DNA from: Priapulus caudatus
Taxonomy: Eukaryota; Priapulida; Priapulimorpha; Priapulimorphida; Priapulidae
Assembly (NCBI RefSeq): GCF_000485595.1
Contig: NW_014577078.1
Coordinates: 1,153,555 to 1,209,833 of the forward strand
DNA: 56,279 bases
Direction: 5' to 3'
Part shown: positions 18,445 to 47,289 of the stretch, in pieces
Position numbering within the stretch: position 1 is the first letter of the stretch
How the letters are laid out: each line of letters begins with the position of its first letter
The notes under the pieces: model-generated
Seen by the model: the letters and a program-made list of their open reading frames with translations, nothing else
What the model was told of the DNA's origin: nothing
Databases searched by the model: none
Made by a program: the position numbers and the translations under genes

Positions 18445-18714
18445 GCTGATAGGGTCTATGTCTCCCTGGGTACTGCCGGAACGTACCATGGGTACGGTCC
18501 GGTATACCGGAACGTACCCTGGTAACTATCTGATATGGTTAGGGTTAGAGTTAGGGTTAGGGAGTAGGCGTAGGCGACTCCCTATATAGACTCGTTAGTG
18601 GAGTAGGCGAGGTACGGTCCGGCATATTAGATAGTACCAGGGTACGTTCCGGTATACAGGACCGTACCCAGGGCACGTTCCGGCAGTACCCAGGGAGACA
18701 TAGACCCTGGCAGC
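18445..18714. mobile_element. telomere-core inverted-repeat element, copy 1 (270 bp)
   Basis: Ends GCTGATAGGGTCTATG and CATAGACCCTGGCAGC, with inverted arms of about 85 bp built from CCGGAACGTACC / GGTACGGTCCGG blocks. Target duplication GTTAGAGTG at 18436-18444 and 18715-18723, 9 bp, perfect. The core is ATATGGTTAGGG followed by TTAGAG/TTAGGG units, then a GAGTAGGCG segment. Confidence 0.93.
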
Positions 18715-18723
18715 GTTAGAGTG

Positions 18724-19311
18724 TAGGTTCTCCATGCACGGGGACCAACAGCGCCGCCATTTAACTCGGGTAATTTTAATTATATTTCCGTTAGGGGTTA
18801 AAATATTTAATCCGGTTCAACCCTAACGTGTGAACCCTTTGATGAAGACAGAGATGAAAGCATAGTCGGCGTGTGATGTCGGGGTGTGATGTAGTCACCG
18901 TTCATACACGTCATTGCAGGCATATACATGTACTGAATTTGACAGCCCGCGTTCTGTCAACCTAAAGGCGGCGATCGTGAATATAAAGCTAAACTCACTA
19001 AACAAGTCTCACACACCGGTATTATGAATACGCATCACTATCATACTGACCAAATACCTCGAGAAAAAAATTATTTCGATGGACACACTCTAAACGCACA
19101 TCACAACGTTAATAATCGCACCATAGTTTAATTGTTAGAATTAGTTTAAAACGACGCAGAATGGCGCTCACAACTGTAAATTTAGCAGGTACGAATAGGC
19201 ACATCAACTTTATTAATCAGAATACTGAACTAAACGTCGAAGTTTCTGTAGTTCAGTGTCATGATATCATCATTTCCGGTACCCACTAGGAGAAAACAAC
19301 AAGAAACTCCG
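18724..19311. other. intergenic between two telomere-core elements
   Basis: Nothing recognised. Confidence 0.45.
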
Positions 19312-19320
19312 CCTATTTAA

Positions 19321-19543
19321 GCTCATAAGGTCTATGTCCCCCATGGTACTGCCGGAACGTACCCTGGGTACGGTCCGGTATACCGGAACGTACCCTGGTA
19401 ACTATTTGATATGGTTAGGGTTAGGGAGTAGGCGTAGGCGACTCCCTAGACTCGTTAGTGGAGTAGGCGAGGTACGGTCCGGCATATTAGATAGTACCAG
19501 GGTACGTTCCGGCAGTACCCTGGGGGACATACACCCTCTCAGC
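19321..19543. mobile_element. telomere-core inverted-repeat element, copy 2 (223 bp)
   Basis: Ends GCTCATAAGGTCTATG and CATACACCCTCTCAGC. Target duplication CCTATTTAA at 19312-19320 and 19544-19552, perfect. The core has only two TTAGGG units and the same GAGTAGGCG segment as copy 1. Confidence 0.93.
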
Positions 19544-19552
19544 CCTATTTAA

Positions 19553-20250
19553 CATCTCACTACCCGATCAAAATAAGTACCACGCACAGCTGTGAATGTT
19601 CTACATGATTTCCACATGTCGCATTTAGTGACGTTTCATAAGATCACCAAATTTTCAAGAAACCATCCATGAATAATTTTTGGAACAAGAAAGGGAACGA
19701 GAAACGTCCCGTTTTATTTAGATACAGATTTCTACTGTACATATTTGTGTTCACGCGTGTGCAACAAATAGAGAATGTAATTTTTCATCACGGAGGTTAT
19801 TACGCATATTGCAGTTCCAGAAGAAACGAAAGAAGTTGAATGCAGTGGCTACACATGTACTTCGTCAATTATTAACGTATTAAGCAAAACGAATACCTAC
19901 ACCCTATAACAAATGCAAGATAATTACACCTACTATTGCAGTATTATTAGCTTCGTACAACTAAAAATACACCACACGAAATATGCAACGAAAACAACAC
20001 ACACATACATTCTGTACAATATAAAAAAGTTTGGACCCCATTCGGATTATGCATAAATCTACGACAAGTCATATCATTTGTTCACATGAACAAGTGTGAA
20101 GAGAAACGTGTCCGTCCTGATAAATGACAAATTAATTGAATGCAATGTTTATTACTCGGTGCCTGTGTCACGCATCACATTTTGCATTACACGTTTATCA
20201 ATAAACGTATCTGATACTACTAGTTTCTATAATAAAGATGAGAACCATTG
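19553..20250. other. intergenic, nothing recognised
   Basis: AT-rich, no feature supported. Confidence 0.45.
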
Positions 20251-20254
20251 CTCA

Positions 20255-20665
20255 ATTGGTATTTCCACTCAACCCAATCATGCATTTGTTAGGTGTCAGA
20301 ACTATTAGATAGTGCTGACACCTACCGTTCTTGTACTAGCAGTACAATGTATATGATTGAGTGCATAGGTATCCTATAACAACTGTTATATGATATCTAT
20401 GGTTGAGTGGTATTATAGGTTTTGGAAAAATTGGTATTTATACTCAACCCAATCATACATTTGTTAGGTGTCAGCACTATTAGATAGCGCTGACACCTAC
20501 CGTTCTTGTACTAGAAGTAATTTGTATTTCTAAACTGGAAAGATTTTATTTTGTTCGTATATTGTAATGTAATTTGTATTCTGTGACAATCGTTTGCGTT
20601 TACTGTTGGTGTCAAGAATAAAGACATTACAATGTATATGATTGTGTTGAGTGGTACTATAGGTT
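20255..20665. mobile_element. pair of related inverted-repeat elements
   Basis: The block CACTCAACCCAATCATRCAT then TTGTTAGGTGTCAG...CTGACACCTACCGTTCTTGT occurs at 20262-20345 and 20438-20512. Each contains a short palindrome (GGTGTCAG...CTGACACC). Inverted partners (ATGTATATGATTG, GTTGAGTGGTA, TATAGGTTTTG) follow at 20349-20425 and 20632-20660. They lie in or beside the 3' UTR region of the MAGUK gene. Confidence 0.75.
20545..20550 (-). other. possible poly(A) signal of the MAGUK gene
   Basis: The first AATAAA on the minus strand that I found below the stop codon, about 700 nt downstream. If used, the 3' UTR would include one of the inverted elements at 20432-20665. Cleavage site not visible. 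Confidence 0.3.
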
Positions 20666-21244
20666 TTGTAAAAAGGGGCAAGCACCTGTTAACTCGTTTT
20701 ATCCTACGTTTACATTATCTTGGAGATCAGACGGACATTCTACAATTAACGGATGGGTAGGTTTTATATCTACTCATTTAACAGTACACGCACACATACC
20801 CACACACAAACACACAAACACCGACACCAACACTTACTACACATTGACAATTCATGCTTACAAAACGCTGTGTGCGCCATTGCTATCTATTGCAGTCTGT
20901 CATGACGCATCATGCTACACTAACTACATTAGACACGTCATATTACTGGAAAGTGATCAAAATAGACGTATGCAAGATTGCTTGGGATTAAAGTGGTATT
21001 CTCTTAGCGAGAACATTTTCATTAGAGACACAATCATTCAACTTTTAAAACAGAGTGTTCACTGCGAATCAGATCAATCATGAATTGTGCATACATTGTG
21101 AACCACACCAGATTAGAATGGGCCGAGTCAATTCAGAAGGTGAGATCTATCATGAATGGCTTTCACTTCAAGTTTTCCGTTGACAGAGGCAGGCATCTGG
21201 CAGGCGGTCGCTCTTCCTTCGCACACCTTGCACAAGGTTGCACA

Positions 21245-21421
21245 TTAGTACACCCAGTTGACAGGCACCCACTGTGGTTCGGTGGCCAACCTCTGGATAG
21301 CGTCGTGCAGCACAACGAAAGTCTTCTCAAAGTCGTCATTGACGATTGTCAGATCAAAGAAGCAATCATAGTTCTTCTGCAAGCGGTAGCTCTCGTTCAC
21401 AGTCCGGTCAAAGTCTTCCTC
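21245..21421 (-). CDS. PALS2/MPP2: MAGUK exon 13 (GK domain end, stop codon)
   Basis: Encodes [35 protein letters not shown] ... [15 protein letters not shown] and TAA. Human PALS2 ends KLRMEPQWVPISWVY. Acceptor TTATGTAG; phase 0 entry. Confidence 0.98.
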   Translation of the reverse strand, partial: EEDFDRTVNESYRLQKNYDCFFDLTIVNDDFEKTFVVLHDAIQRLATEPQWVPVNWVY

Positions 21422-24400
21422 CTACATAACAGGGATAGGACATCACCAGTGACCTTATGAGTAGCTTCATTGCTTACCAGTATCTTGATTCTTATGAAGT
21501 GATAGCAACTAAATATTAAAATTACTGCGCTGAAGGAAGACAGATTAAAAAATACAAACGAACAGGAATAAAATTATCTCAGTTGGAAGAAGTTGATGAA
21601 GAACATTGCTCCCTCGCTATCCTTCTCCTTGATTTAAAATTACGAGTGAATCATTAGTATTACAATTAAAGAATTCCATCTCCTACAAGACTGTATGCAT
21701 ATTACCGTAGGACTACACAAAAATCATTGCAAAAGGTCAATCATATTTGAGCTAAAATGTAATAAATAAATCATTATAAATAATATTGACATAATTGCGA
21801 AAAGCATGCACACTGATACAAAATCATGCACTAAGTGTATCATTCAGTGACAGAAATGTGTGTACAATTTCAGACGTGTGAATATCCAGTTACTAAAATT
21901 AATAAGTAATAATCAAATTAAGGAAAGACCATATAACCGATGTTTTTTGTTGTTGCAATTTTAGGTAATAAATGCAGTCTTTGCATTCTCTTTGCTAGTT
22001 CATACTGCCTCCGCCACCAAGACGATCACAAAAAGACTAGTAGGATTATTATAGCTATGCGCCATAACCTTTAACAGTTATTCTGTGCATCAGTCATGTG
22101 CACATACTATTACAGCTGAGTGAATGTTATTGTAATTGTTACTATATGTCCCAATAAAAAGTATAAATGTTACGTCAAGTTTTCTAAAACTGCAGAAAAC
22201 AAGACACGTTTTAGCATGAAGAACATCATTTATGAGTGTTAGTGTATTTAGTAACTACGTCTAGCAACTGTACCTACAAACTACACTCTCCAGAGCGTGG
22301 GTATTGGTCACAGTCGTGGTGAACAACTTCTGCTCTACACTACCAGCTACTGAGAGTTATTCTGTTGTTAGGTAAGAATTCGTAGCAATCAGATTTACCG
22401 TCATGTCCATGAACTCTGTATCTAATGTGCTCATCGTCACAGATCTGTTCTGCAGCTCACGCTCGTACTGTGATAAAATGAAAAATGTCATGCGGCATGC
22501 AAAAACCGGACAAAATGAAACGTGAAGCATCCAAAAACTATACCACCATCACAGGTTTTTGCAATTGAATGACATGAATTATAATAGAATAACAACATCC
22601 AACAAGCAAAATATGAAAAAAAATGTGCCAAACATAAATCAACAGGTTGAACATTCGCAAGATACACATCATTAAGATGGCATGTTGCAGCAATAGATGA
22701 GACTTGAAACCTAGAATAAATTGATTTACATGCAAGATATAGTAACAGCTTCAATGTGTTACCAAAATCACACCCTAGATTGCGTGAGAGCCCAACCCAT
22801 CCCTCATGTCACATGACACAATACCAAGATGCTCAATGCAATAGACAGTGCAAGCTTCAATATTGTCACCAGATGGCAGCATGCCCCTGTAACACTGCTG
22901 TGTGCCGAAGACAACAGGGCAGCCAGCTGCATGCAAGCATGCTCTACTCACAGCAAGGTTCTTTTGGATGTGGCCCTCGCGCACGGCCTGCTCATGCATG
23001 TTGCGCAGTCGGTTAATGTCAGGTGCTTGCAGGAACACAACAAATGGCATGAACTCCGGCGTGCTCAACTTCTTCAGAGCCTGTTAAAAAGTAAATAAAG
23101 TTAAAATATAAATAAATATGGAAAACGTTATTTTACAACAGTATGCAGCAAATTTATAAGGGAAATATAATATTGTGCGTTTGCAACCTTTTCGAAACGA
23201 TATGGAATTACGTATTACACGAAATCATTACAGACACAATATAAAAACAAAAGCGTCTATAAGACTTAATGCAGGTTATGATTAACAAAGTGTAGGGGCA
23301 GCGTGTAACAAAAACAAGTGGCATCATCATGCAACCGCATCAAGAAGTCGACAAACAAATTTTAATCGTAGCATATTTTGGTGAAAATACTCAATGTACG
23401 AGTCTTCTAAGATATGTTAGCCTCACTTTAGACACTCGCTTTTACGCAAGATACACCCGCAAGTATTGTTATGGTCTGAAAAATATGAAAACGTCGGGAA
23501 GATGGTGCAAAATCATTGCCTTAAGATCCGTAGCATTAGTTCTAGTATTTAGTATTCGTCTACGTACCACAGAGTTGCAGTCGATGACGCACATCTTGCC
23601 GGCGCGCACCACCTGCCGCATCGTGTCCAGCTTGGTGCCGTAGATGTTGCCATCCAGCTCACCGCTCTCCAGGTACTCATCGGCCGCCATGTCGCGCTCC
23701 ATGATCGCACGATCCGTGAAGAAGTACTTCCTGCCGTCCTCCTCTCCCGGTCGCATCGCGCGCGACGTGTCTGCGAGAATGATTACAAGCTGGTGAATGG
23801 CTGGTGAATGTGCGCGCCAGCAAGCCGCGCGATGACACACCTCTCTACTCGTCTACTCATACATTTTATATGCAGCCAATGTCTACTCTACTCTATTTTA
23901 TTTCATCGCTATGCTTTTAACAGTACATAAACTATAGAGCAAACAACTATTAAAACTGAAAACCATGTCTTAGTTCTACTCAAACTAAGAAACGGTACCT
24001 ATGTAGTTCGAACAATGTAATAATATTTAGCAATGCAATAATTAGCTATGCTTGCTTGATTCATAAAGACCAACCCCTTGTCCCTGCTACATTAATGAGC
24101 CAAGCTAGAAGAATGTAGATATGTACCGACCACTGACTCTTAATGCGTTCTGACAGTTTTGCAACCACTATTTCGTGACATTTGGAGCCATGGGAAAGTT
24201 CCATGTGTTTCTGTAACTCATTGATTATAGTTTGATGAAGGGGGTTAATGAAATTTGTGAGCACATGTAGTGTCCGTTTTGTGTATATGCAAGGATGCTG
24301 TGTGCATAGATGCTATATTATCTTCATTGTGTATTGCAGGGAAAAGTGTTCAAGTGTATTTCGGTAATATCAGTTACTAGTGCCAGTTATTATCAGTATC

Positions 24401-27400
24401 TGTCTATACACGAAACAGAATAGACAGATAGATAGAACAACATATTATATGTTCCCATAGCTACAGCCTGCCCCTACTTTAGTATAGTAGAAGCATAGCC
24501 AAATATATGATGCTATGAGCCATGGTCGATGTCACGAGACAAGGGTAATGTAATTTAATGTAATGCATCTAATTTGTGTATGCGCGTGCATTCGTATTAA
24601 TGTATGTACGGTTCTGTATATATTTTACTTCTTTATAACATCCTATCGCTTGACAAAAGCTAGTGTACACTGCATATAAACATTGTAAGCAAATCGAAAC
24701 TGGCACTGACCGACACAAAGGTATCAGAGGTTGCCAGAACTGAGATGCTGGCCAACAAGAAATTTCAATTAAATAAATCGACTTACGTGGAATTGTAGTT
24801 CCATAACGAGTTGGGTCACTGTTTATGAGACGGCTCTTGATGGTTCGTCGACCGACGCCCTGAGCACCAATAAGCACCAGGGTTTTGCGCTGAAACGGCG
24901 GCATGCGGGCAACCTCTTCATACAGCAGCAGTTCGTGTCTGTCCATGTCTGTAACAAAATCAGACAAAAAACGTACAGGCACAAAATCTATCCTTGCTAC
25001 AAGCTACATTCTACATGCTAGGAAAACACTACATTACCTACTTTTTTAATGTTCAATAATAACGTTTTATGAAATAGCATAATGTATTATTTAAATGTTT
25101 TATGATAAGTTATTTCTCTTGACTAACGAAGGAGATATTAAAGCTCTCGTTATGTTAGTAAAAGCATTTAATAATACAAGAGAAGTTTTGCAGCTCTTGA
25201 TTATTTTGTATCACAAATCACAGTTTTAAACCTAAGATAGGAGATGAACGACGTAAGACGTAAAGACGTAAAGACGTTTTCTTTCATTTTGCTGTGGCAA
25301 ACCCATTGGTTTTGTTTATGCACAAGCAGATTTTAGTGAGAAAACACTGGCAATCTGCAGAAATAAAACCTCATAACATGAAATAGGTTAAAAAGCACAT
25401 GGCGTTGGGCAAACATATGCGGACCGAGCTCCACTTCCCACACTACTTACCATGCATTTTTGAAATAGCTTCGGAATAACAAACCATCGTATTTGAGAAC
25501 TATATTTACAAGATAATTATTGAATTAGTTTTGAAAGATATTGGATAAAATAATGAATTTGTGTTCTTTTAAATGATTAAAATTATCATTAAATATTACA
25601 AAATCTTTGTCTCTAGTGTGCACAAAGTCTATTGCATAACTTGACAACATCAACAACTACCTATCTGTAGTTTTTTAAATAAATTATTTATAAAAAAACA
25701 CATCAAACAACAAAAATTGGCATATATAGCAAGAATAAAACAGATTTAACTGAAATAAATTTTAAAAGCTAGATTACAGGTCATCTTTAGGCAGTGCACT
25801 TTTTCATTATGACCAAATGAGAAAAAGTGAGAAAGTGATAGCATTGAACATACTGATGTGCATGACACTGTATGTCCATAGCGGACTATAATGGTGCCGT
25901 TTCACAAAAAGAGCTAGAGGTGGTTTATAAAGCCTGAATTAGATATACTGGCCTAGTGAACACACACATACCTGACGTGTGGTGGTGATTGTAATAGACT
26001 TTCTTCTTTCTTTTTGACGTTGCAAGCGAACCAAATACTAGAATCAAAACAAAATGCATCAAAATAAGATGGGGGACATAACATTGGCCTGATATCAGTA
26101 ACTTACCCATTGTTCTGCTGTGACTGTACAAGACTTTTTTCTTTCGTTTCGCCTTAATTGAACCACAGACTGGAAAACGCAAATCATGGCAAGTTATGCA
26201 AGTGCAGGTTTATCAAGAAATAAACCTTTGTGAACCGGAATGAGTTGTGGCTTAAGCAGATATAACTAAACAACTATGGTGCTTAGTGAGTCAACCATAT
26301 CGCATGAATGACCTAACCCATTGTTGCTGATGAGGATTTTTTGGCAACACTTACCAACCGTCTTGGTGAAGTCAAGTTCAGGTTTGCAAAATGCTTTTCT
26401 GCTCTCCTCCAAATTGAGCGAAGGAATCAGCCCTGCTGCTTTGTCTTCTCCGACCTTTCTCGCCTAGTAAGTAGTGACGAGCGAATAAAGTTTTTCTCGG
26501 CAATATTATAGCATCACTTTAGCATTGATGATACAGTGTACATAGGATTGGAGTGTTCTGCCCATAATTCTTAGTCTACATGACATTCCATACATAAATT
26601 AAGTCATTGCCCTGCATAACTCACAGTGTTCAGTACTGTGTTTGTGTATGGCTAACCTCGACCCATTTAAAAGTGTAATAATAAAAAAAAATCATTAGTT
26701 ACATGAAAAAAATTGTGTAATTACTTAATTATCTCCATTGACTGTTATGAACAACACATAGCTCTAAACACGTACTACAGAACAGTACTTAGAGGTCATT
26801 ACAAACCACTCTCAATTATCACTAAGCTGGATTATCATTGAACTAGCAGGTGCAATACTCTGTATATTCTCACAGGCATCTTTTAAATTTTCAACCATAG
26901 CCACGACATTATGTTCCCTTTGTTCTCCAATTTTCAGACCAACTGTATGGCAACTATGCAAAGGTTTTGCTCCTTAGAACCTATAGGACACATAGACCAA
27001 ATCAGATCAGTCACACAGCACACCCGGAAAACCCACCTGCCACCAGTTGGGATCTTCCTGATTGACAATCTCCAGGATATCACCTTTGTGGAAAAAAAGA
27101 CCTGCTTCCTTGCAAGGAATCAGTGTATCTTTGGAAGGATCATAGGAAAAGTGCACCTTCATAAAAACCTGCAATAAATACACTCACTGTTAACTGTCAT
27201 TTGCACTGTTTGCATTAGTGAATATCAGCATGTTGATATAAATAATTGAAAATGCACAACACTACTACAGTAATACAAAGGAAAAACGGTCACATAGGAA
27301 ATACAAAAGAAAAACAATAAATAACACATACAGGACAACAAGGGGACACAGCAACACTTGAACACACAGGTAGTTTTCTATACACCACTAACTGTTCTAG

Positions 27401-30400: not shown

Positions 30401-33400
30401 ATTAGAAATATTTAAAAAAATGTTTTAAAACTAACGACTACAGGTTTGATCTACAACGATTGGGTTGGCGCCACTCAAAGCGACGATATTGCATAAGTTT
30501 GCGCAAACCACTTTCCAGCAAGGCTACAGACGAGCCGTGTTTCTTATTTATTCATTTAAAAAGCAAAAGGATTTGTATATATCTTACATATAAGTGTACG
30601 ACATATAGTTTCAGTTATATTGGATAAATTTGTCCGCCCTAAAATGAATATCGGTTTTCAGTTAAATAGCATTAGGATATAAATATAATTGCACGTTTGT
30701 ATTAGCCCTCAGTTTCTGCTAACGTGCCACAAATAAATTGTTCAACTACGCAAACTTTTCGGGGGTGGCAGCACGGTCGCGGGTGTCATGGCGCCGTTCA
30801 AATTTCGTAGCGTTGATGTGTAATTAATTATAACAATAAAATTAGGTATCTGGTAACAAATACGTGTGGGTATAAACGATTTGTTATACAGTAAGTACAG
30901 TTGTATGCAGTAAAATCCTAGAGGCTACTGTCCCTTTAACATTAACGCATGTGCTTATTTTTAAGATTCATGCAGTTACACGCCTGCCAAATTTTCTTTG
31001 GACATTAGCTAAAAAAAATACAGTAATTCCGCGAGGCCGTGCTCCGGAACAAACTAGTTACTAGTATGGCAGAATTTTCAGGGAGTCACACGGACTCCTG
31101 CATATGTCAAATCAGGGAGTCCAACAGTAAATCAGGGAGTATTTGACTCCGGACTCCCGTTAATTTCGCACCCTGCAGTAAAATGTATCCCTGGAATGAA
31201 ATAGTGATAGCTGTCCAAGGAAATTCATTACTCCAAGACACTCAGGGCCAATAAGGCAACGTAAGCAGAGAGGAGCACCATAGCATAGCAATAGCACTGC
31301 AAGTAATTAAATTAATTTAAGTAGTAAATACGGTTCTGCATTTACTGCGAGCACTGGGAGGCAAGTTTGTACGGCAATTCCTCTTTTCGTTTTCCGTGAT
31401 TGTACCAACGAGTTTTTTGCCAGCTAACTCCGAGAAACCACACAGTCATGCAACCACGCGACATAGAATTCACATACTTAGAAGGATTTTAACATACATA
31501 TAACTAGTACATATACACGTACATGAACTATTCATTTTGAACAACTCTGAGTAATTACTGCACCATTATATATATATATATATACATGTATGTATATCTA
31601 GCCTATAAATATACCTTGATCAGATTTTTCATAGCAGGACTATCAAGCAGGGATTGCAGAAAGACGAGGTCTTTGTGTTGTGCTGTGACATGGTTTATAT
31701 CTGTGTTCGGTGATTTGATAAACTGGTCACTGACAACTGGAAGCAAAGAAACAGAAGAGTCAGATATATGCACACGTACACATGTATGGTGCACAATGGT
31801 ACACATTAATATCCATCTAGTTCACGTCCCTCGAAGCTGACCTGGAAAGTGTAAGTAAAAACTGAAATATAATTTTTAGCACTTATTATCCCTTATGCTA
31901 TGAATTTTAGCTTGTGATTGTTCTTGGGGAATGTAAAATTATTTCAGTTGAGAGATGACAAATGCCACATAGTAAGAGGGTTCATTTCAGCTAGTAGGCC
32001 CTAACAGTTATTTTAAGGACCAATGAATATTAACACAATCCATATTACCACATTCAAGATTTGTAAATATGATATACAAACTGATGCTCATAAGGGTCTA
32101 TGTCCCCCAGGGTACTGCCGGAACGTACCCTGGTAACTATCTAGCTGATATGGTTAGGGTTAGGGTTAGGGTTAGGGTTAGGGTTAGGGTTAGGGTTAGG
32201 GTTAGGGTTAGGGTTAGGGTTAGGGTTAGGGTTAGGGTCCGGCATATTAGATAAGTACTAAATACTAAAACCCTAACCCTGGTACTAAATACTACGGTCC
32301 GGCATATTAGATAGTAGTATTTAGTACCAGGGTACGTTCCGGTATACCGGACCGTACCCAGGGTACGTTCGGGCAGTACTCTGGGGGACATAGACTCTCT
32401 CAGCCAAACTGATCTCCGCAGGGGTTAGAAATGAATTTTTGACTAGGAATATCCAGGTCACCAAAAAGAAATTTATTATCTGACGTTTCAAATTAATGAT
32501 ACCAATATTACAACAATTTAATGCACGAACAATAAACTAAAATGTACTATGTACTTAAATTATTGTATTAGCTGCTATACAGTAGGCCTACTGCAGAATA
32601 AGATTAAAAAATACTAAAAGCAATATTATTTTCAGTGTTTTGGGGGTGTTTTGGTTAAATGTACGCTAGCAAAATTGTCAGAAGTAGCGCAGGCTTCTGC
32701 TGCTGTAAAACCAGAAAGTCAGACAGTGAAAAATGGAATATTTGACTTGAAACTAAGAGTTAATTTGACCCCTGCTAAGGCTTGAGGCACTGCACTCTCC
32801 CACGGCACACAAACCTATATTTAATTTACAACACTAGACTTGTCTACATCTGTGACGATGTCACTTAACCAACCATACAGGTTGCTATATTATATATTAT
32901 ACAGCTATCTATGCTATATTATACAGGAGCACACAGTCACTAGTATACTGCAAAACATCATCATACTGAACAATATCACCTCACTGAGGTCAATGACCTA
33001 TAGACAAGTATGGTCCATAATATTGTCAACAGCTCTAGGATTGAGTGTACAATGACTCCTACTAGCTATTCTTCCCATTTTGGGCAGGTTAACCCATCTT
33101 CAATACAAGATGAGAGAATGAAGAGCTCCTCATAATTTTTCGCATTTACAGGTTTACCACTGCCACTCCAGTAGAAGTGTACCCGTAGAGTACACGGTAA
33201 ATATAATATATATATAAGTATCTGGTTCTACCAACATCAGAGGTGGTGACACTGGTGGAACATCTATTGCCAGACATTCGGTGTCAACCTGTAGGACCTT
33301 TAGTAGTTTTGATATATCACAAAGTACAGTAGGTATCTATACCCACAGAATATTACCCAGGAGAAATTATAAATACTAATAACATACAATAATAATTGTA

Positions 33401-36293: not shown

Positions 36294-36295
<2 letters not shown>

Positions 36296-36338
<43 letters not shown>
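36296..36338. repeat. (GA)n microsatellite
   Basis: About 42 bp of pure GA, preceded by a GGGAGGCGGG-rich stretch (36175-36255). Confidence 0.95.
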
Positions 36339-36340
<2 letters not shown>

Positions 36341-37294: not shown

Positions 37295-37392
37295 CTGATG
37301 CACAACAGTAGGCCTACTACGTACGACCGCTGGCAGGGATTTGTTGTAAAATTGCGCAAGTAACATTACGAATTTATATCTATAACATGTAT

Positions 37393-37456
37393 CAGGGGTT
37401 AATAATGACAAATCTTTGACACATCTAATGACAAATCTTTGTCATTATTAACCCTC
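37393..37456. mobile_element. ~64-bp hairpin
   Basis: GGGTTAATAATGACAAA and TTTGTCATTATTAACCC are inverted arms around a 28-bp middle that itself repeats AATGACAAATCTTTG. The ends (CAGGGG, ATAAT) resemble the CAGGAG hairpins. No target duplication seen. Confidence 0.6.
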
Positions 37457-38840
37457 GTGTTTGTCGACAATTTGAATTATGGACGCCATGGCAGATGCTG
37501 CGTAAATTGTCACTAGATGGAGACACTGCACAGAAAATTCAGACCGTTTCGCATAACGGCAAACACCATCAGCGAGTCCTACAACCATGAAGGCGGCGTA
37601 CAAAAGTAGAGGACGTCCATAGGCAGCAGGCCGGCATTGAACAGAAATTAATTAAAAATACTAGACGAACGGCCACTTGACGGAATGGCACAATTACAGA
37701 ACAAGACCAATCTCACGTCTCATGCTTTCTAGTACTACTTTCTAGACGTCCACGAGGTATCTACCTTGCGTGCATAAATGCAAATTACTGCAATCTAGTG
37801 CCAAACTTTACCGCCAAAAAATTCAAAAGGTCGTTTCCCAGAGACGAAATAGGGCAACAATTGGCGGAAGGCTACTGTTGTATGCCACCTGAAGACAATA
37901 GTAGAATATGTGTACAGAATGTATGCGCCTACGCGCACTCGCGTGTTTTATGGCGGAATAAGCATCTTATAATATGATACCACAGCATACTCTGGTATTT
38001 CGTCAATAAAAAAAATAAAAAAATAAAATAATAAATCATGATATACATATAATTATATAATATATAATATAATATTTTTTAAATAAAAAAAAAATACATT
38101 GTAAACAAAAATAAAATATAAAACTAAATACACACGCGCCCACATACACGCGCGAGCTAACTCAGAATGAGTATTTTTGGAAATATATTGATTTTACTGC
38201 CGTAGCATCTCCGTACCAACATAAGCAATTGAATAATAAGTACAGGACATTATTTTGCCCAAACCAACGTTACACATAACTGGCAAGCCTTAAAATAATT
38301 GAATTCATTCTTTTTTTTCTGAAACTTCTCAACCCTAATGGCGTGCATCCATATTTTACATGAACTGTGCACGTTAACTTACAGACCCCCAGATGTAAAC
38401 GGCAGTACACTACCTATGGTCAAAATTGCCTGACGTGATGTGATTACCAAAACTTAGAATCCCCGATTGCCATCCTGATGGGATTCGGGATTGAACCGAC
38501 GAACTATAATTTCGCAATGACATGTACTACATACACGTGTAGGCAGCCAAATACCACAGCGTGCAGTTTCTACAGTTTTAGGCACTACATTAATATTATT
38601 AATTTTTAGGGCCAAATTTTATCAAACAAATTTTCAAGGCAAGATATTATCAAACAAGACAATCGGATCATAACTCTTTGTTTAGTACACACTGTAAATA
38701 GTTCTGGTAACGATATTTGTGCATTGGATAACACCTTATAACAACAACAAGAGCATTTTAGCATTGCAATTAATTTGTATTTATACTGGTGACAATTTTA
38801 TAAGCTGATCGAATCCATATCTGGAAGTCCTATTATGGAT
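37457..38840. other. intergenic, nothing recognised
   Basis: AT-rich simple sequence at 38007-38130. No gene supported. Confidence 0.45.
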
Positions 38841-38847
38841 ATATAGC

Positions 38848-38922
38848 AGGACACCCATCGTTGCCCGGGAAATGAAGCGCTCAGTTGGTGACCACTTGGT
38901 TGAAAGTGAAATACCCAAAAAA

Positions 38923-38959
<37 letters not shown>

Positions 38960-39140
38960 GTCTGTGCGTGTGTGCGTGTATGCGTGTGTGCGTGTGTGCG
39001 TGTATGCGTGTATGCATGTATGTATGTATGTATGTATGTATGTATGTATGTATGTATGTATGTATGTATGTATGTATGTATGTATGCATGTATGCATGTA
39101 TGCATGTATGCATGTATGTATGTATGTATGTATGTATGTA

Positions 39141-39171
<31 letters not shown>

Positions 39172-39235
39172 CCATCTATCTATCTATCTATTGATCGATA
39201 GATCGATCGATCAATCGATCTATCTATCTAGTTAT
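38848..39235 (-). mobile_element. SINE-type tail joined to a compound (ATCT)n/(ATGT)n microsatellite
   Basis: AGCAGGACACCCATCGTTGC, CCGGGAAATGAAGCGCTCAG, TTGGTGACCACTTGGTTGAA, then AAATACCCAAAAAATATCTATC and about 300 bp of tetranucleotides. The same tail, also joined to tetra/pentanucleotides, occurs at 40767-41092 and 44414-44710. Confidence 0.8.
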
Positions 39236-39669
39236 GTATCTAATTATGTATGTACTAGTTAGTCTAGATTCTAGAACGTGGATTCGCAATCCCCCTGCAC
39301 AAAAAATTACACCAGAGCAAGTAGTGCATCTATATATTTTAATGACTGAAACAATGGCATAGTGCTGCCAAAATTCTTTCATAAAAATGATGGTAGATGG
39401 CGCTTTTGAAGGAGGCATTTTAGAGATTAGAAATAAAACTTAAAAAATAACAATAAATAATAATGGAAAACAATACCTACACAGTACAATACATTACAGT
39501 ACACTATGGATTATATGATTTTAAGGGATCTTAGCCAAACAGTTGAGAAATTTTACATAGACCCATAACTAATTCTGTGTAGAGATGTTTTAAGCCACCA
39601 CAAACAAACCGTGCACCCACACGTATATCAGTTACAACTTACAAGTAAACAAGAAGCCAAATTACGGCC

Positions 39670-40705
39670 CACAAACTGTGGGGCAAGAAATTTTCGGGCA
39701 CACGAACTCTTCGGTGTCTAAGCAATTTTTTGGTCCACAAACTGTTTGTGGTGTCTAAGAATTTTTTGGTCCACAAACTGTTTGTAGTGGCTAAGAAGTT
39801 TTTTTGGTCCATAAAGGCCCGCTTGTGTCGGCCTTACCTAGTCGCCGACAAGATTTGAATATCGTACGTCAAAAACCGGCCAGATCGTCGATAAAAACAT
39901 CGGCGACCAAACTCGACATGAGTTCTCTTACGATCGAAAATACGGTCGCCGACTGCGATCGCAAAAATAGAACATGTTCTATTTCTATGCGGCTGTTGGC
40001 GACAAATCGTGAGTGGCAGCCAATCACCGCAGCATACCGAGTCACATGATTAATAAAATGGCAGCCTACACAGCACGCCATCAGCAGTTTACAAGGAGGG
40101 ATTATTGCACAAACCCTTTCTCAAGTTTTCCGTATATCACATGAAAAAAATTTCTGCACATGATGATAACGATGTTCAGAAAATTGAAGATAGATTTACG
40201 AAGTTACATGATGTTTACTGGTAAGCGCCATTTTGTTGGTCACGTACGTGACTCGTTTTATGTAGACTGGTCCCGGCGTCAAGCTTGCTCTGTTTGTGCT
40301 AAAGAACTGCTTGTGCTAGTACAAATACTGGGGCCGCGAACCCGTCTACGTTTCATGCAGGAACGCTACGATCTGATCGTGTGTTGCTACGCTGCTAATC
40401 GGCGATAAAGTAGTCGCCGATAGTCAAATCGTAGGCCGACATAAGCGGGCCTTTAACTGTTTGTGGTGGCTAAGAAATTTTTCCATCCACAAACTTTGTA
40501 ATGGTAAAAAATTTTTGGCTCCACAAACTGTTAGTGGTGGGTGGCTAAGGAATTTTTGGGTCTGCAAACTGTTTGTGGTGGCTAAATATTATTTGGTCCA
40601 CAAACTGTTTGTGGTGGCTAAGGAATTTTTGGGTCCACAAACTATTTGTGGTTGCAAAGAATTTCCTTGGTCCACAAACAGTTTGTGTTGGCTAAACATT
40701 TTTTA
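39670..40705. repeat. ~42-bp dyad-repeat array, split by a MITE
   Basis: The unit TTTTTTGGTCCACAAACTGT then TTGTGGTGGCTAAGAA contains the perfect dyad CCACAAAC(T)GTTTGTGG or close variants. About three units lie at 39685-39812 and six to seven at 40455-40705. The segment 39814-40453 is an insertion. Confidence 0.9.
39814..40453. mobile_element. 640-bp MITE inserted in the dyad array
   Basis: Inverted ends AAGGCCCGCTTGTGTCGGCC and GGCCGACATAAGCGGGCCTT (one mismatch over 20 bp). TA borders both sides, a Tc1/mariner-type target. The interior has TCGCCGA motifs but no intact coding sequence. Confidence 0.85.
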
Positions 40706-40766
40706 TCAAATCAATAAAGAAAAAAAGCGTGATAGAAAAACAGATAGTTCACATTTATCAACTAGC

Positions 40767-40859
40767 AGGACACCCTGCGTTGCCTGGGAAATAAAGCGCT
40801 CGAATGACGACGACTTGGTTGAAAGAAAAATACACAAAAATATATCTATCTATCTATAT

Positions 40860-40892
<33 letters not shown>

Positions 40893-41026
40893 CCAACCAA
40901 TCAATCAATCAATCATTCAACCAACCTATCTATCTATCTATCTATCTATGTATCTATCCATCTATCCATCCATCTATCAATCTATAAATCTATCTATGTA
41001 TTTATCTTTTTATCTATCTATCCATA

Positions 41027-41088
<62 letters not shown>

Positions 41089-41092
41089 ACCT
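40767..41092 (-). mobile_element. SINE-type tail joined to (ATCA)n/(ATCT)n microsatellite
   Basis: AGCAGGACACCCTGCGTTGC, CTGGGAAATAAAGCGCTCGA, then GACTTGGTTGAAAGAAAAAT and AAAAATATATCTATC leading into about 240 bp of ATCA and ATCT repeats. Confidence 0.8.
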
Positions 41093-41225
41093 ATCGAAAA
41101 TAGTCTTGCACACTCTGTATCAAGTCAGTGCAAGGTGAATGTTGTTACAACCATGACATGGCGGATGTAATATAATGCATGTATAGTAACGCAATGTAAC
41201 GCACATTGCACAGTAATGCAAGTCA

Positions 41226-41719
41226 GTGCAAAGTGAATCCCGTTTATTTAGTGCTGCTTCAGGGGCCCGTTTATTTAGTGTTGCTGCAGGGGCGCCTTTA
41301 TATAATGCTGCTGCAAAGGCCAGTATATATTTTCCGTTTTTTGGCTTAGATGACCTCGGAGGTCAAATCGAATGTGCCCATGACATTCAGCACAAACATG
41401 TACCCCTACTGAACGTCTTTGACATTCCTAGAGTGCTCGAGAAGATCGATCTCGATAGATTTGCATCGAGAACAGACAAACAGACAATTGACAAATATGT
41501 ATTAGATGGGGAATTGGGCCTCGAACATCGGTCGCCGTTGACTGCTAAGATAATTTTTTTCGGCCATTTTTATACGGTCAAAGTGGAGCCAGGCAGGCTG
41601 CCAGCACGTGCGCATGGTAAAATCAGATATATAATATTCACTTTTCTCGTAGCATCACGCCCTTGGTTGTTATATGGTTATATGGTTTTTATATGGAACA
41701 ACTCTGGATATATATATAT
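41226..41719 (+). CDS. unrecognised open frame
   Basis: About 165 codons are open. The middle (GQIECAHDIQHKHVPLLNVF, DIPRVLEKIDLDRFASRTDK, QTIDKYVLDGELGLEHRSPL) has protein-like composition, but I know no family that fits. The first 40 residues come from a short tandem repeat (TTTATTTAGTGCTGCTGCAG-like) and the end is AT-rich repeat next to a foldback. It may be a transposon remnant or chance. Confidence 0.2.
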
Positions 41720-42056
41720 CAGGAGTGTATAATAGGGAAGAGTGTGACATCAATAAACAAGGGAAATCGTCATTTACTAGCCTTATAATACCTACGATTT
41801 ACTACGCGTAACTCATCCAACTTGAGCTCAAATCGGACACAGTACATTCGCCCATCATCGTACCAAATCGTTTCCTCGTAGACACCCGCAATCCGAAGAT
41901 ACAGCCTAAAACCTACGACACGATTCTCCATATTCTTTGGCCAATAATCCACCGCATAGCGCGCCAATAATTCAAACAAACGGCTGGCAGTTTCTTCCCG
42001 CTCTGTCCACGGCTTGTGCTCACGGCGAGGCGCTGTGGCTCGCAGGGACATTTGAA
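41720..42056. mobile_element. left arm of a CAGGAGTGTATAATAGGG foldback, cut by the assembly gap
   Basis: Begins CAGGAGTGTATAATAGGG and is nearly identical to the arms at 42547-42905 and (inverted) 43478-43830. It runs into the N gap. Its minus strand encodes an open C-terminal segment (ENRVVGFRLYLRIAGVYEET ... LDELRVVNRRYYKASK, stop near 41777). Confidence 0.85.
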
Positions 42057-42066
42057 NNNNNNNNNN
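42057..42066. other. assembly gap (10 N)
   Basis: Ten undetermined bases between a foldback arm and a dispersed repeat. The repeated arm on both sides suggests a difficult or collapsed region. Confidence 1.
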
Positions 42067-42531
42067 ACCAAATACGGTAGGTCAGCGCTGAAACAAAAAA
42101 GTTTTGACAATCGTCCGTTACTACCATGTCCTCCAGAAAATGTCTGATATCTGACCTTGCACCGACTGCCCTTTGACGACTGTGACTCCAATTTCGCAGG
42201 CTGGTGAGTTCCTCCCATCACACTATACATCGACTATTAAGCGCGGTAGTAAGCGCGTTGAATTTGTGCCGCAATTCCGGTATTTCCTCCTATACCTTAA
42301 GTTAAGGAAATATTCCCCTGATCCATTGACACTTATCTTGACCTTTGACCTTGACCAAATTTCGACATCCCGAGTCAGCGCCCGCCCCCCCCCCCGACGT
42401 CCACAAATTATCAAGACCGTCTGTCGAGGCGCTTAAGATTTGTGCCCAAACTTGGTTGACAACGGACGGACGGACTGGACAATCATGCGATTCTACAAAT
42501 TGCATGCCGACTTGCTTCAGCTGAGCTAAAG
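42067..42531. mobile_element. dispersed CGGACGGAC...GAGCTAAA repeat, copy b (partial)
   Basis: Matches 16705-17168 (GGTCAGCGCTGAAACAAAAA, GACCTTTGACCTTGACC, ACGGACGGACGG, GAGCTAAAG). Its 5' part is missing at the gap. Confidence 0.8.
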
Positions 42532-42546
42532 AGAGGTATTATATAT

Positions 42547-43830
42547 CAGGAGTGTATAATAGGGAGGAGTGTGACATACAATAAACAAGGAAATTCGTCA
42601 TTTACTAGCCTTATATAATACCTACGATTTACTACGCGTAACTCATCCAACTTGAGCTCAATCGGACACAGTCATTCGCCCATCATCGTACGAAATCTTT
42701 CCTCGTAGACACCCGCAATCCGAAGAACATACCTAAAACTACGAACACGATTCTCCAATCTTTTGGCCATTAATCAAGCCGTAGAGCGCGCCTATGATTC
42801 AGAACAACAAGGCAAGCACGATTGTGCTGCCCGCTGGCGTGTGGTGGTGGTGGTGAATGTAGGGAAAATGTGGCGTTGTGGCTCGCGAGGAGATTGGACA
42901 TCGACGGCGAAAGCATTAGACGCAACGGCGAGTGCTATTGTAGCCTGTATGCTGTAGCTCTGGAGCCGTGCAGGGCGACGCGGAAGCATTGCGTGCATCT
43001 GTTTGTTATGTTTGTTTCTCGCTGTAAGAAGCCGATAAAAGCAGTAGATACTAACCCAACTTCAGGTAGTATCTATGCGATAAGTGAAAATATCAACAGG
43101 CACCGCGTAAGAATAATCCTAGAAAAGACAGAAGACGAAAAACAGCCACGAAAAGATTCGTGAGCTGCTGACAGAACGCCGAAATTTAAGAAAGTTGTGT
43201 TGGCGCTGTTGAAATGACACCGACGTGCGAAGCATCTAGGCAGGCTAACATTAGAAGCAGTGTTCGAGTAAGAGCTCCATCTCGACCACGGTGATGGCGT
43301 GTCGTGTTGCTTGAGCACAGTAGACAGCGACCTCACACGTCCTGGTGTCGCTTGCTCATAAACATTGTTTATACACGCGTTATACACGCTGGCGCTGAGC
43401 CGCAGAGCTGCTGCTGATTGCGGTTGGGGGGGGGGGCATACTAGCTGCAAATAGGTCATGATTAGCTCGTCTATGGTTGCGTCGATGTCAAATCTCCTCG
43501 CGAGCCACAACGCCACATTTCCTACATTCCAACAGAGCAAACGCAGCGGCAGCGGGCAATCGTGCTGCCTTTTGTCTGAATCATAGGCGCGCTCTACGGT
43601 TGATTAATGGCCAAAGATTGGAGAATCGTGTCGTATGTTTTAGGTTGTATCTTCGGATTGCGGGTGTCTACGAGGCAAAGATTTCGTACGATGATGGGCG
43701 AATGTACTGTGTCCGATTTGAGCTCAAGTTGGATGAGTTACGCGTAGTAAATCGTAGGTATTATAAGGCTAGTAAATGACGAATTTCCCTTGTTTATTGT
43801 TGTCACACTCCTCCCTATTATACACTCCTG
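42547..43830. mobile_element. 1.28-kb foldback element with ~350-bp inverted arms
   Basis: Left end CAGGAGTGTATAATAGGG and right end CCCTATTATACACTCCTG. Arms 42547-42905 and 43478-43830. AT-rich flanks prevent a firm target-duplication call (ATATATAT on both outer sides if the 41720 left end is used). The right arm is open on plus (43620-43779) and ends LDELRVVNRRYYKASK. The left arm has frame-breaking indels. Confidence 0.85.
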
Positions 43831-44099
43831 ATATATATAGATTTGTTACGTTTTTTTATATTTTATTTGGTGAATTTCAGCCCACCATGAAAAAATAATT
43901 AAAATATATTTGATCTGTAACCTACATAGGCTTCCGTGAAGTCTTCCCGTCCATTTGCGCTATTATTATCATCTACCATAGTTTATTCTGGATTTTTACT
44001 AAACTTTTAAATGTAGTAAAAAATTTTAAATTTTTAAATTAACGGTGAAGTGGCCGAAGTACATACTAACCAGTCAAAAACAAAAAGAAACATAAGATT

Positions 44100-44260
44100 C
44101 CCCCAGGTGGGACTCGAACCCAAAATGCCCGGTTTAGGAGACCGATGGCTTATCCATTTGACCACTGGGACGTTATGCGTAGAAAGCATCATTCAGTCAT
44201 TCGAGATGTTAAGCTGTACGCACTGCCATCTATTGTCGAATAGTAAATTAGTAATTTTTT
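44100..44260 (-). mobile_element. tRNA-Arg(CCT)-derived SINE fragment
   Basis: 44171-44100 reads as a 72-nt tRNA-like sequence. It has an A-box-like TGGTCAAATGG, anticodon loop CTCCTAA (CCT), B box GGTTCGAGTCC and acceptor GTCCCAG/CTGGGG. Mismatches in the D stem, T stem and first acceptor pair make a functional tRNA unlikely. The sequence beyond its 5' side (TACGCACTGCCATCTATTG on plus) recurs in the SINE at 44414-44989. Confidence 0.8.
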
Positions 44261-44413
44261 TCAATGTTTAACTTTTTAACTTTTTTTTATTTTTGTTTCA
44301 GCCAGAACCACCTCCGAGACATGCTGATTCTGAATATATTTTCAGTTTTCCTCTAGGCTGCGTAGTTCTCTAGTTATAAGAGTACACACAAACTCAACAA
44401 CTTTATATATATA

Positions 44414-44989
44414 AACTAGCGGGAAACCCGGCGTTGCCCGGGGAAATCAGTGGCGTTACTCAGTTGGTGACCGCTTGGTTGAAAGAAAAATACCCACAAA
44501 ATCTAACTATCTATCTATCCATGCATCCACCCATGCAAGCATGCATCCATCCCATTCCTTTCCCATTGCACCGCATCCCATCCCATCCCATCCCATATCC
44601 CATCCCATCCCATCCCATCTCATCACATCCCATGCCATCCCATGACATCCCATGCCATCCCATCCCATCGCACCGCATCCCATGCCATGCCATGCCATGC
44701 CATCCCATCCCAAACAGTAAAAAATAATAAGAAATCAAAAGATAAGACATTAAAAATAAAAAGTAAAAAGTAAAAAATTAAAAATAATACATACTAAAGA
44801 GGTAGGTAACGGGGAAAAAAGGAAGAAAAGAGGGAAATAAGTTCCCAGCTGGGACTCAAACCCGGAATCCCGGTGTAGAAGACAGATGTTCTAGCAATTA
44901 GGCCACTGCGCCGTTATGGTTATACACCATGGATTCACACGTACGTGATGTTAATCTTTACGCACCGCCATCTATTGATGAATATACTA
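44414..44989 (-). mobile_element. complete tRNA-derived SINE with internal microsatellite (576 bp)
   Basis: The target duplication CTTTATATATATA (13 bp) lies at 44401-44413 and 44990-45002. On minus, in order: a leader with AATAGATGGCGGTGCGTAAA, a tRNA-like head at 44912-44841 (anticodon loop CTTCTAC, B box GGTTTGAGTCC), a T-rich stretch, a GGGAT/GGATG microsatellite (44710-44520), and a tail TTGGTTAGATTTTGTGGG ... ACCAAGCGGTCACCAACTGA that ends in the hairpin CCCGGGCAACGCCGGG and CGCTAGTT. Confidence 0.85.
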
Positions 44990-45002
44990 CTTTATATATA
45001 TA

Positions 45003-45996
45003 GATGAAGTATATGGTCGTGTTCTACTTGGATGTCTACTTGACAGTAAACTGTAATACTACTAAGTACTGTATTAGCTTGAGATGTGTTTAAAATACTT
45101 AACTTTTTATTCTAAAAATGCAGTACTGAATACGATCAGTCCACAACACATGGGCCACCATCGAGTTTAGAATTTACATATCCGGGTTCGTGTTAAATTT
45201 ATTATATGATATACACACTCATGTTTGGTACAATTTCACAACCCGTGCTTCGAAAATATGTTGCGCCATAGATGCAGCTACTGTTGGAAAATCAATGCAC
45301 AACACTCACAGCATGGAATAACGTTATTTCCGTATGAATACGGCACTCCGCGAGAGCTTCTGGTAATAAATTTTTTTTTTATTCGCTACCGCTTTTAGAA
45401 ATATTCAAAGGTCAGCGCTGCATGTGTGCCCCGACATGGACCAGTAAGGTGCAGCCGGCAATATAACAAATCTAACAGCCTACTCTGCAGAACGATGGCC
45501 ACTCCGTTTCTATGGCAACGAGACAGAAAACTAGCGTGCGTATTAGATATACCCGGCGAGACTGATGAGTCATAGGGCGACCACCAACCGTTATTCTCGT
45601 GTGAGAAACAGCATCTCAAAGTGTGCCGATGGAGGGTTGTAGATGAAATTAAGAAAATGATCAGAAGCATGAATAACTGGGCGATTGTAAACTCTGCACC
45701 GATGCTAATAATGTAACATGTGAGAGGCTGATAACACAGAAGCGGTGCTGACAGAATGAAAGCATCAGTGACAGATCACATAATTATGGTGACATTTGTT
45801 TCTAGTTTCATGTCACTCAATTGTTTATTTGTAAATTATTCATCTAAACTGTATTGTCGGCTTACATATGTGTGTACCTTCAGGAGTGAATATATCAAAG
45901 TTGTGTTTTTATTCACCCCACCCCAACAGTTTGTATTATTATGTAGTAATCGTTGTAAAGTAGATGTATGCGTGTATTCATTTAGTTACATTGTAG
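45003..45996. other. intergenic with a perfect X-box
   Basis: No exon recognised. See the X-box entry at 45506. Confidence 0.45.
45506..45519. promoter_or_regulatory. RFX-type X-box motif
   Basis: GTTTCTATGGCAAC fits the reverse of the RFX consensus GTNRCCATNGNAAC at every fixed position. X-boxes mark promoters of ciliary genes, but no ciliary gene was identified nearby, so function is unproven. Confidence 0.35.
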
Positions 45997-46762
45997 CAGG
46001 AGTAGATAATAGGGAAGGAGTGTGACATCAATAAACAAGGGAGATTCGTCATTTACTAGCCTTATAATACCTACGATTTACTACTCGTAACTCATCCAAC
46101 TTGAGCTCAAATCGTAGACAGTAAATTCGCCTAGTATCGTGCGAAATCGTTTCCTCGTATACACAAGCAATCCGGAGATACAGACTAAAACGTACGACAT
46201 GATTATCCATTCTTTGGCCATCAATCCAAAAGTATTCCCCGCCGAACTTGCAAACAAAAGGCAGCTACTAACGCACTGTCGCTCACTCGTCGAGGCGGTG
46301 TGGCTCGCAGGGAGATTGCGGTGGGCGTGCGTGCGTGGGGGGCATACCAACTGTATGCCGGTATGCAGGTATGCCGGTATGTAGCTGTGTGCCGGGTCAA
46401 AGGTTATCTCGCTGAGTGTTGCGTCGATGTCCAATCTCCCAGCGAGCCACACCGCCTCGCCGAGTGAGCGACAGTGCGTTAGTAGCTGCCTTTTGTTTGC
46501 AAGTTCGGCGGGGAATACTTTTGGATTGATGGCCAAAGAATGGATAATCGTGTCGTACGTTTTAGTCTGTATCTCCGGATTGCTGGTGTATACGAGGAAA
46601 CGATTTCGCACGATGCTAGGCGAATGTACTGTGTACGATATGAGCTCAAGTTGGATGAGTTACGCGTAGTAAATCGTAGGTATATAATAGGTTATAAGGC
46701 TAGTAAATGACGAATTTCCCTTGTTTATTGATGTCACACTCCTTCCCTATTATCTACTCCTG
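45997..46762. mobile_element. 766-bp foldback element, intact ends
   Basis: Ends CAGGAGTAGATAATAGGG / CCCTATTATCTACTCCTG, arms of about 320 bp (45997-46318; 46431-46762), interior about 110 bp with ATGCCGGTATGCAGG repeats. ATTGTAG borders both sides (45990-45996, 46763-46769). Both arms keep the ...ELRVVNRRY...KASK-stop reading pointing outward. The right arm has a 9-nt in-frame insertion. Confidence 0.92.
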
Positions 46763-47011
46763 ATTGTAGCTATCAGTACTCACTATAGTAAGAACTATAA
46801 CGCTACCACATAGGAAACGAGTGACTAACGCTTATTCGTGTACCTAATATGAGATTTTAAGAAATAAAGAAATAAAGGAATTAACCTTAGCCACTCTTTC
46901 TCTACAATGACACAGTTTATATTGGAAAGAAATAGCCAGCGGGCTATTGCCCGTAAGCAAAACAAACCGGGGCATCATCCCACCCCTCAATGTCTACTCG
47001 CGCGTACTAGT

Positions 47012-47289
47012 GCTGATAGGGTCTATGTCCCCCAGGGTACTGCCGGAACGTACCCTGGTACTAAAAACTACTATCTAATATGCTGGACCGTACCTCGCCT
47101 ATACTCCGCTAACGAGTCTACCTCGCCTACGCCTACTCCCTAACCCTAGCCATAACCCTAACTCTAACCCTAACCCTAACACCAACCCTAACCATATTAG
47201 CTAGATAGTTACCATGGTACGTTCCGGTATACCGGACCGTACCCAGGGTACGTTCCGGCAGTACCCTGGGGGACATAGACCCTATCCGC
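47012..47289. mobile_element. telomere-core inverted-repeat element, copy 4 (278 bp)
   Basis: Ends GCTGATAGGGTCTATG and CATAGACCCTATCCGC. Target duplication CGTACTAGT at 47003-47011 and 47290-47298, perfect. The core is in the opposite orientation (CCCTAA, with CCATAA, CTCTAA and ACCAA variants) at about 47142-47190. Confidence 0.95.

Follow-up and report, generated by a model that had tools for sequence, protein, structure and literature searches.

Interstitial telomere repeats are generally interpreted as relics left by chromosome fusions or by the action of telomerase at repaired breaks. A stretch of the genome of Priapulus caudatus raises the question of whether such repeats can instead be carried from site to site as part of a transposon. 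In these 56,279 nucleotides, hereafter the window (G000:C18:1153555-1209833, within a 385-Mb genome of 2,952 contigs), four short elements with inverted ends, which we call family A, each enclose a tract of TTAGGG. Family A proved to be a genuine transposon family, abundant and non-autonomous, whose cargo is telomere repeats, and two further tract-bearing families, B and C, were found in the same genome.

The four elements lie exactly at the positions given by the original prediction, which had been made from the letters of the window; each is bordered by a perfect 9-bp duplication different from the other three, and all have the tract at one shared internal point, as had been proposed (Table 1). 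Other details of that prediction held in part. Inverted ends of about 85 bp describe copy 1, in which self-matching gave arms of 80-87 bp at 94% identity, but not copy 2, in which one arm is shortened and the self-match covers only about 35 bp at 97%. The ends do not simply start with GCTSATA, as the outermost 7 bp are unlike at the two ends of a copy and co-vary between them, the commonest combination being GCTCATA with GCTGAGA (36/53 copies), and GCTGATA being paired with GCTGCCA in 5/53. The proposed range of 2 to 14 units fits the longest exact TTAGGG runs of copies 1-4 (2, 2, 14, and 2 units, within tract totals of 26, 14, 87, and 56 nt). The tract of copy 4 is degenerate, with about nine units, and reads CCCTAA owing to the opposite orientation of this copy.

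Table 1. The four family A elements of the window with their target duplications and tracts (positions are those of the window).
Feature	Position	Strand	Description
Copy 1	18445..18714	+	270 bp, ends GCTGATA...CAGC, 80-bp arms at 94%
Copy 1 left target duplication	18436..18444	.	GTTAGAGTG
Copy 1 right target duplication	18715..18723	.	GTTAGAGTG
Copy 1 TTAGGG tract	18537..18562	+	26 nt, one variant unit TTAGAG
Copy 2	19321..19543	+	223 bp, right arm shortened
Copy 2 left target duplication	19312..19320	.	CCTATTTAA
Copy 2 right target duplication	19544..19552	.	CCTATTTAA
Copy 2 TTAGGG tract	19413..19426	+	14 nt, two units
Copy 3	32086..32404	+	319 bp, interior rearranged past the tract
Copy 3 left target duplication	32077..32085	.	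CAAACTGAT
Copy 3 right target duplication	32405..32413	.	CAAACTGAT
Copy 3 TTAGGG tract	32152..32238	+	87 nt, 14 exact units
Copy 4	47012..47289	-	278 bp, opposite orientation
Copy 4 left target duplication	47003..47011	.	CGTACTAGT
Copy 4 right target duplication	47290..47298	.	CGTACTAGT
Copy 4 CCCTAA tract (TTAGGG on the minus strand)	47138..47193	-	56 nt, degenerate, about nine units

The abundance of family A was determined by searching the genome on both strands with a 34-bp piece of its end, allowing up to 3 mismatches and using the reversed piece as a control. The search returned 2,100 forward and 2,094 reverse matches (4,194), compared with 0 for the control; because a copy has two ends, the genome should hold about two thousand copies or more. 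Duplications and tracts were then scored on fetched copies, not on all copies of the genome. The first fetched loci yielded 69 parsed copies, 67 of which had recognizable ends (at least 4 of 6 terminal letters). An end-selected sample of 57 copies (L009-L078), made up of perfect matches to the pattern, as listed contig by contig, plus neighbors, was reached through end matches alone, without use of the tract. The median length in this sample was 260 bp, and three copies exceeded 600 bp, two of them through nested sequence: L041 (716 bp) and L058 (607 bp) are family A copies with other sequence nested inside. The consensus without the tract, read in tract orientation, was 240 bp, and 73 copies differed from it by 5.2% on average, after three copies longer than 400 bp and two whose tract could not be scored had been dropped from 78 parsed. 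With its short length and inverted ends, a target duplication whose length stays constant from site to site, and a high copy number, family A has the traits of a miniature inverted-repeat transposable element (MITE).

The 9-bp duplication was exact in 25 of the 67 copies, matched at 8 of 9 positions in 13 and at 7 of 9 in 7; exact duplications of other lengths (6-8 and 10-13 bp) were absent from them. As a control, the left and right flanks of different copies were paired, and only 17 of 4,422 such mismatched pairs had 8 or 9 matches. Among the 37 end-selected copies with intact GCT...AGC ends, 17 had an exact duplication, 26 had 8-9 matches, and 29 had at least 7, compared with 8-9 matches in 5 of 1,332 mismatched pairs. 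The terminal letters decided where an end was placed, and ties were settled by the duplication score, a freedom that the mismatched-pair control does not have; more than one end pair was possible in 5 of the 37 copies, and 21 of the other 32 had 8-9 matches. Thus, the duplications represent true insertion events, as had been claimed for the four elements. The insertions also show a preferred target, which in tract orientation is near-palindromic, roughly n-T-(T/A)-A-(C/G)-T-(A/G)-A-n. The centre A(C/G)T was present at 35 of 45 sites with at least 7 matches, against a flank background of 47 in 810 triplets (5.8%), and at 34 of 43 sites with at least 8 matches in an enlarged set that included copies found via the tract. 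Two of the four window sites (CAAACTGAT and CGTACTAGT) have this centre and the other two do not.

The tract proved to be a regular part of the element. At least one exact TTAGGG was present in 54 of the 57 end-selected copies, at least two in 48, and at least three in 42, indicating that TTAGGG is the cargo of a mobile inverted-repeat element; the copies without it are L015, L072, and one of the two copies in L075. In most family A copies, the tract is preceded by ...TATTTGATATGG or a close variant and followed by AGTAGGCGTAGGCGACTCCC.... The original prediction had named two outcomes that would speak against a mobile family, namely, copies without consistent 9-bp duplications and tracts absent from most copies; neither outcome was observed in the fetched copies, since most of the intact-end copies had consistent duplications and nearly all of the end-selected ones contained the tract. 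One copy, L015:1493-2115 (623 bp), has family A ends and an 8/9 duplication, but its interior of ~490 bp is unrelated and contains no tract, so that ends and cargo are separable; this interior may have been captured from the host or may be part of a longer element.

Across the 73 copies, the tract measured between 7 and 134 nt, and its lengths differed mostly by multiples of six. The mean difference in tract length was 26.1 nt for copies less than 6% apart (723 pairs) and 26.4 nt for those more than 12% apart (551 pairs), and copies less than 2% apart already differed by up to 60 nt. Since the differences are about equal at low and high divergence, the tract changes much faster than its flanks and, as had been suggested, varies in length independently of them. 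A weak tendency for more diverged copies to have shorter tracts was observed (Spearman -0.32, p 0.006, the p value being too small because the copies are related).

Tracts of TTAGGG were also found to lie in elements other than those of family A. Five exact units gave 918 and 1,000 overlapping genome matches on the two strands and none in the control, and the matches listed, which follow contig order, represented 42 distinct tracts on contigs C1-C16 (38 in L079-L114 and four elsewhere), to which the following shares refer. Family A accounted for 15 of the 42 (13 with both ends recognized and two with one), family B for 4 (L083, L093, L097, and L098; three with both ends), and family C for 3 (L081, L085, and L096; two with both ends), so that these three families carry as cargo no fewer than 22 of the 42 listed tracts. 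Eight more lie between other inverted repeats that scored above the 95% point (two in L086, and one each in L090, L094, L099, L102, L103, and L106). This point was taken from 375 random window positions scored for flanking inverted repeats; in 39 tract tests (36 loci, one tract being counted twice), 25 were above it and 7 were above every random position. By contrast, the 95% point for flanking inverted repeats was not exceeded by any of the window's 24 other microsatellite runs, in a small control in which the 24 runs and the copy 3 tract form 12 clusters.

The ends of family B, GCAGATGGGGTCGTTGTCG and GCTSAAGGGGTCGTTGTCG, had 560 and 551 genome matches, with 0 in the control. By eye, the three copies with both ends showed duplications of AGCAGTAAC/AGCAGTAGC (8/9), TCAAGTATG, and GTCACTTGC (both exact over 9 bp), and all three targets had the A(C/G)T centre. 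Alignment of the 45-bp end of family B with that of family A gave a score of 12.0, compared with 3.4 +/- 1.5 for letter shuffles, and none of 500 shuffles scored as well; families A and B are therefore probably sisters, as judged from this alignment of their ends. Family C has arms starting near TGCTATCC and a clear direct repeat in one of three copies (TGCGGGTAG, 9 bp, equidistant from both arms), and direct repeats were also seen at L099 (TCATTTACA, 9-11 bp) and L090 (GTTGTACC, 8 bp). The duplication evidence for family C, L099, and L090 comes from one copy each and is much weaker than that for families A and B. The ends of family C and of the elements at L086, L099, L090, L094, L102, L106, and L103 are unlike those of A or B. 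Accordingly, the design that had been attributed to a single family is confirmed in family A but is not confined to it, because the related family B and the unrelated-looking family C carry TTAGGG too. A junction, TTAGGGTTTTTGCATCAT, is common to the tracts of different elements at L085, L086, and L100, with a variant in L096, hinting at ancestry in common or shuffling of cargo.

The enzyme that moves family A is likely to be a MULE (Mutator-like element) transposase, although this is not proven. MULEs are described as making 8-11-bp duplications and often having long inverted ends (PMC6446971). The 9-bp duplication of family A falls in that range, and its arms of ~35-87 bp (window self-match) are on the short side for a MULE, though still within the lengths reported there. 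The genome has 46 MULE-domain matches, of which nine in eight loci and one further, L123, were inspected. Taken together, a Mutator-like enzyme as had been proposed is plausible, the duplications and the 46 matches being consistent with it, but no transposase is tied to the family A ends. Among the inspected MULE loci, only L120 has inverted ends, which are long, contain a repeated unit like GGTACCTATGTGTCCC, and surround an open frame with a MULE domain followed by an assembly gap. Its right terminus resembles that of family B (8.5 versus 3.9 +/- 1.6, a score reached by 4 of 500 shuffles); it does not resemble that of family A, and its flanking repeat, TACGTATT/TACGTAGT, is imperfect by eye. 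The best database relatives of the L120 protein carry PF10551 and PF04500 (the latter being FLYWCH), and the named ones are mostly from marine animals; no match between this protein and the other MULE loci was found at E 1e-3. L123 is a different MULE gene without inverted ends. Matches to A- or B-like ends obtained with a loose regular expression at eight MULE loci were scattered, formed no inverted repeat round the gene, and were treated as chance. A MULE-domain match was also noted at G000:C56:715866-716156 within a stop-free frame of 5,965 codons.

Unpaired family A ends were present in 16 loci, and 420 bp inward was inspected for 10 of these and for L012; L022, L023, L024, L036, L037, and L070 lie outside that inspection. 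By eye, the inspected ends belong to degenerate, truncated, or interrupted copies or are lone ends, and no transposase-like sequence was seen in these 420 bp, no protein search being part of this inspection. At L077, the unpaired end runs into an open frame that looks like TEX10. L039 and L040, chosen for their forward and reverse end matches 2-3 kb apart, were each found to contain two separate elements. In L058, a tRNA-like sequence, similar to a short interspersed element, is apparently inserted in one family A arm (by eye); a tRNA match in the window lies at 44099-44171.

We consider it fairly probable that the four elements represent an inverted-repeat family of ~260 bp with 9-bp duplications and a TTAGGG tract that is likely moved in trans by a MULE transposase. 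Several observations weigh against this view. No transposase was found between family A ends, either in the inspected copies or around the inspected MULE matches, and those surroundings cover only 10 of the 46 matches, with ~3 kb per side and some gaps. The resemblance of the L120 terminus to family A is not significant (134 of 500 shuffles as good), and the strong target preference of family A is at odds with Muta1 (PMC5225508) and Tm1 (PMC3169594), both reported to lack one. In addition, 8 of the 37 intact-end copies had fewer than 7 matching duplication bases, the end-selected sample leans to young copies and leaves the 16 loci with unpaired ends outside it, and 12 of the 42 tracts among the matches listed lie in no recognized element (one, in L082, borders a gap).

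Some of these points would fit a mover other than a MULE. Merlin transposases, for example, make 8-9-bp duplications, and a telomere-cargo element moved by such an enzyme would agree with the lack of an autonomous family A copy and with a target preference unlike the accounts of Muta1 and Tm1; however, the 46 MULE matches and the inverted ends and B-like terminus of L120 speak against it, and we regard this alternative, for which no search aimed at Merlin transposases was made, as rather doubtful. Somewhat more credible, yet still unlikely in our judgment, is that each element began with an ordinary TTAGGG-like stretch that grew by slippage without any link to telomeres. Lengths in hexamer steps fit slippage, MITEs with other simple repeats are known (PMC9659126, PMC6947457), and the role of TTAGGG as the telomere repeat of this host is presumed, but one and the same hexamer recurs in unrelated-looking families (A/B, C, and single loci such as L099 and L090), and the 24 other microsatellite runs of the window do not lie between inverted repeats.

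The common junctions bear on a further idea, namely, that each tract was inserted separately by telomerase-aided repair of a double-strand break, a mechanism documented in mammals (PMC2246262). This mechanism could account for the 12 listed tracts outside recognized elements or for a founding insertion, but most examined family A copies have the tract at one internal point between like flanks, and they occupy different sites with different 9-bp duplications. Separate insertion within family A is thus refuted but is conceivable for the founding event, and as a general account we hold it to be very improbable. The proximity of two window copies, ~600 bp apart, might recall segmental or assembly duplicates of one locus, an explanation to which we give almost no credence: the flanks differ, the exact 9-bp duplication is different at each of the four sites, and the genome-wide end counts stand against 0 in the control, which rules out chance as well.

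In the explanation that we favor, of a transposon with telomeric cargo, an ancestral element would have gained telomeric DNA in its interior, whether through capture from the host in the manner of MULEs or through repair of an internal break with the aid of telomerase. Cut-and-paste transposition with the enzyme supplied in trans would then have multiplied the tract-bearing element, and many interstitial telomere repeats in this genome may thus be products of transposition, the tract of each copy having been subsequently lengthened or shortened by replication slippage. A bolder proposal, which we put forward with considerable reserve, is that several separate inverted-repeat lineages each took up and kept telomere DNA because TTAGGG helps them, conceivably through binding of telomere proteins, easier replication, or recruitment of repair at the excision gap. 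If so, interstitial telomere repeats would be a property of transposons instead of marks left by the history of chromosomes. Because at least 22 of the 42 tracts among the matches listed are cargo of three inverted-repeat families, tract counts or hybridization signals can report transposon history. With what are likely two thousand or more natural copies of a single insertion type, family A also lends itself to measuring the growth and loss of TTAGGG arrays inside chromosomes, and it raises the question of why unrelated-looking families have this cargo in common.

Other features of the window were noted as well. Nested inverted repeats at 45997-46762, with outer arms of 71 nt at 99% and ends CAGGAGTAGATAATAGGG, are bordered by a direct repeat, ATTGTAGC, of 7-8 bp, the last base of which is in common with the arm; they are likely another mobile family, and related pieces lie at 41708-43842. 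An inverted repeat of ~1 kb at 10950-11943 has arms of 178 and 54 nt at 94-96%, and no flanking duplication was found at it. On the minus strand, two open frames at 23469-23852 and 24569-25003 contain parts of a guanylate kinase domain and are probably exons of one gene; the match of the latter frame is just below the Pfam cut-off, and its solved relatives include CASK and MAGUK p55. Finally, a direct repeat of 198 nt at 92% is present at 16567-16764 and 56082-56279; its two units are separated by 39.5 kb, and the latter reaches the last position of the window.

Compared with known systems, family A comes closest in kind to the MITEs that carry tandem repeats, which include the (GTCY)n mobile microsatellites of Lepidoptera, Xmix/Xstir and miDNA4 of Xenopus, and the BIV160 and HindIII satellites of bivalves (PMC9659126, PMC6947457). 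Like these, it is a short inverted-repeat element that bears and spreads a tandem repeat, which lies inside the ends in most copies and varies in length (54/57 copies; 7-134 nt). Unlike them, it carries TTAGGG, a cargo found here in several families of one genome, whereas the repeats named in those accounts are not the telomere hexamer, and it combines 9-bp duplications with a preferred target. Mammalian short interstitial telomeric sequences likewise are internal TTAGGG tracts, but they are described as arising singly at repaired breaks (PMC2246262); independent insertion would give each tract its own junctions, whereas the family A tract has junctions in common across copies and is copied with the element at a fixed point.

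In its mobility, family A is similar to Muta1 of Aedes and the Phantom-group MULEs of Aedes and other animals, for which 8-9-bp duplications, ends with subterminal repeats, and hundreds of non-autonomous derivatives are reported (PMC5225508, PMC6446971), Muta1 itself having more than 300 putative non-autonomous relatives (PMC5225508). It differs from Muta1, described as having no apparent target preference, in its preference for the A(C/G)T centre and in having no proven transposase. The weak or absent target preference of Muta1 and Tm1, which is not defining for all MULEs, is thus not a feature of family A. The Mutator/Foldback family Tm1 of the nematode Meloidogyne shares with it the mostly 9-bp duplications, the composite inverted ends, the asymmetric outer motifs, of 7 bp in family A, and the MITE-like copies (PMC3169594); unlike family A, Tm1 is reported to encode a predicted transposase and to show no target consensus, and "telomer" as a word is absent from the paper (PMC3169594). 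We found no description of TTAGGG cargo in a transposon in the open-access literature as sampled here, which is weak evidence of absence with most subscription papers and the repeat databases outside this scope. The claim that no family of this design had been described may hold for the telomeric cargo, which appears new, but not for the wider design, as MITEs with other tandem repeats are already in print. Thus, tandem-repeat-carrying MITEs are a known kind of element, and what family A and its companions appear to add to it is a telomeric cargo common to several families together with the A(C/G)T target rule.

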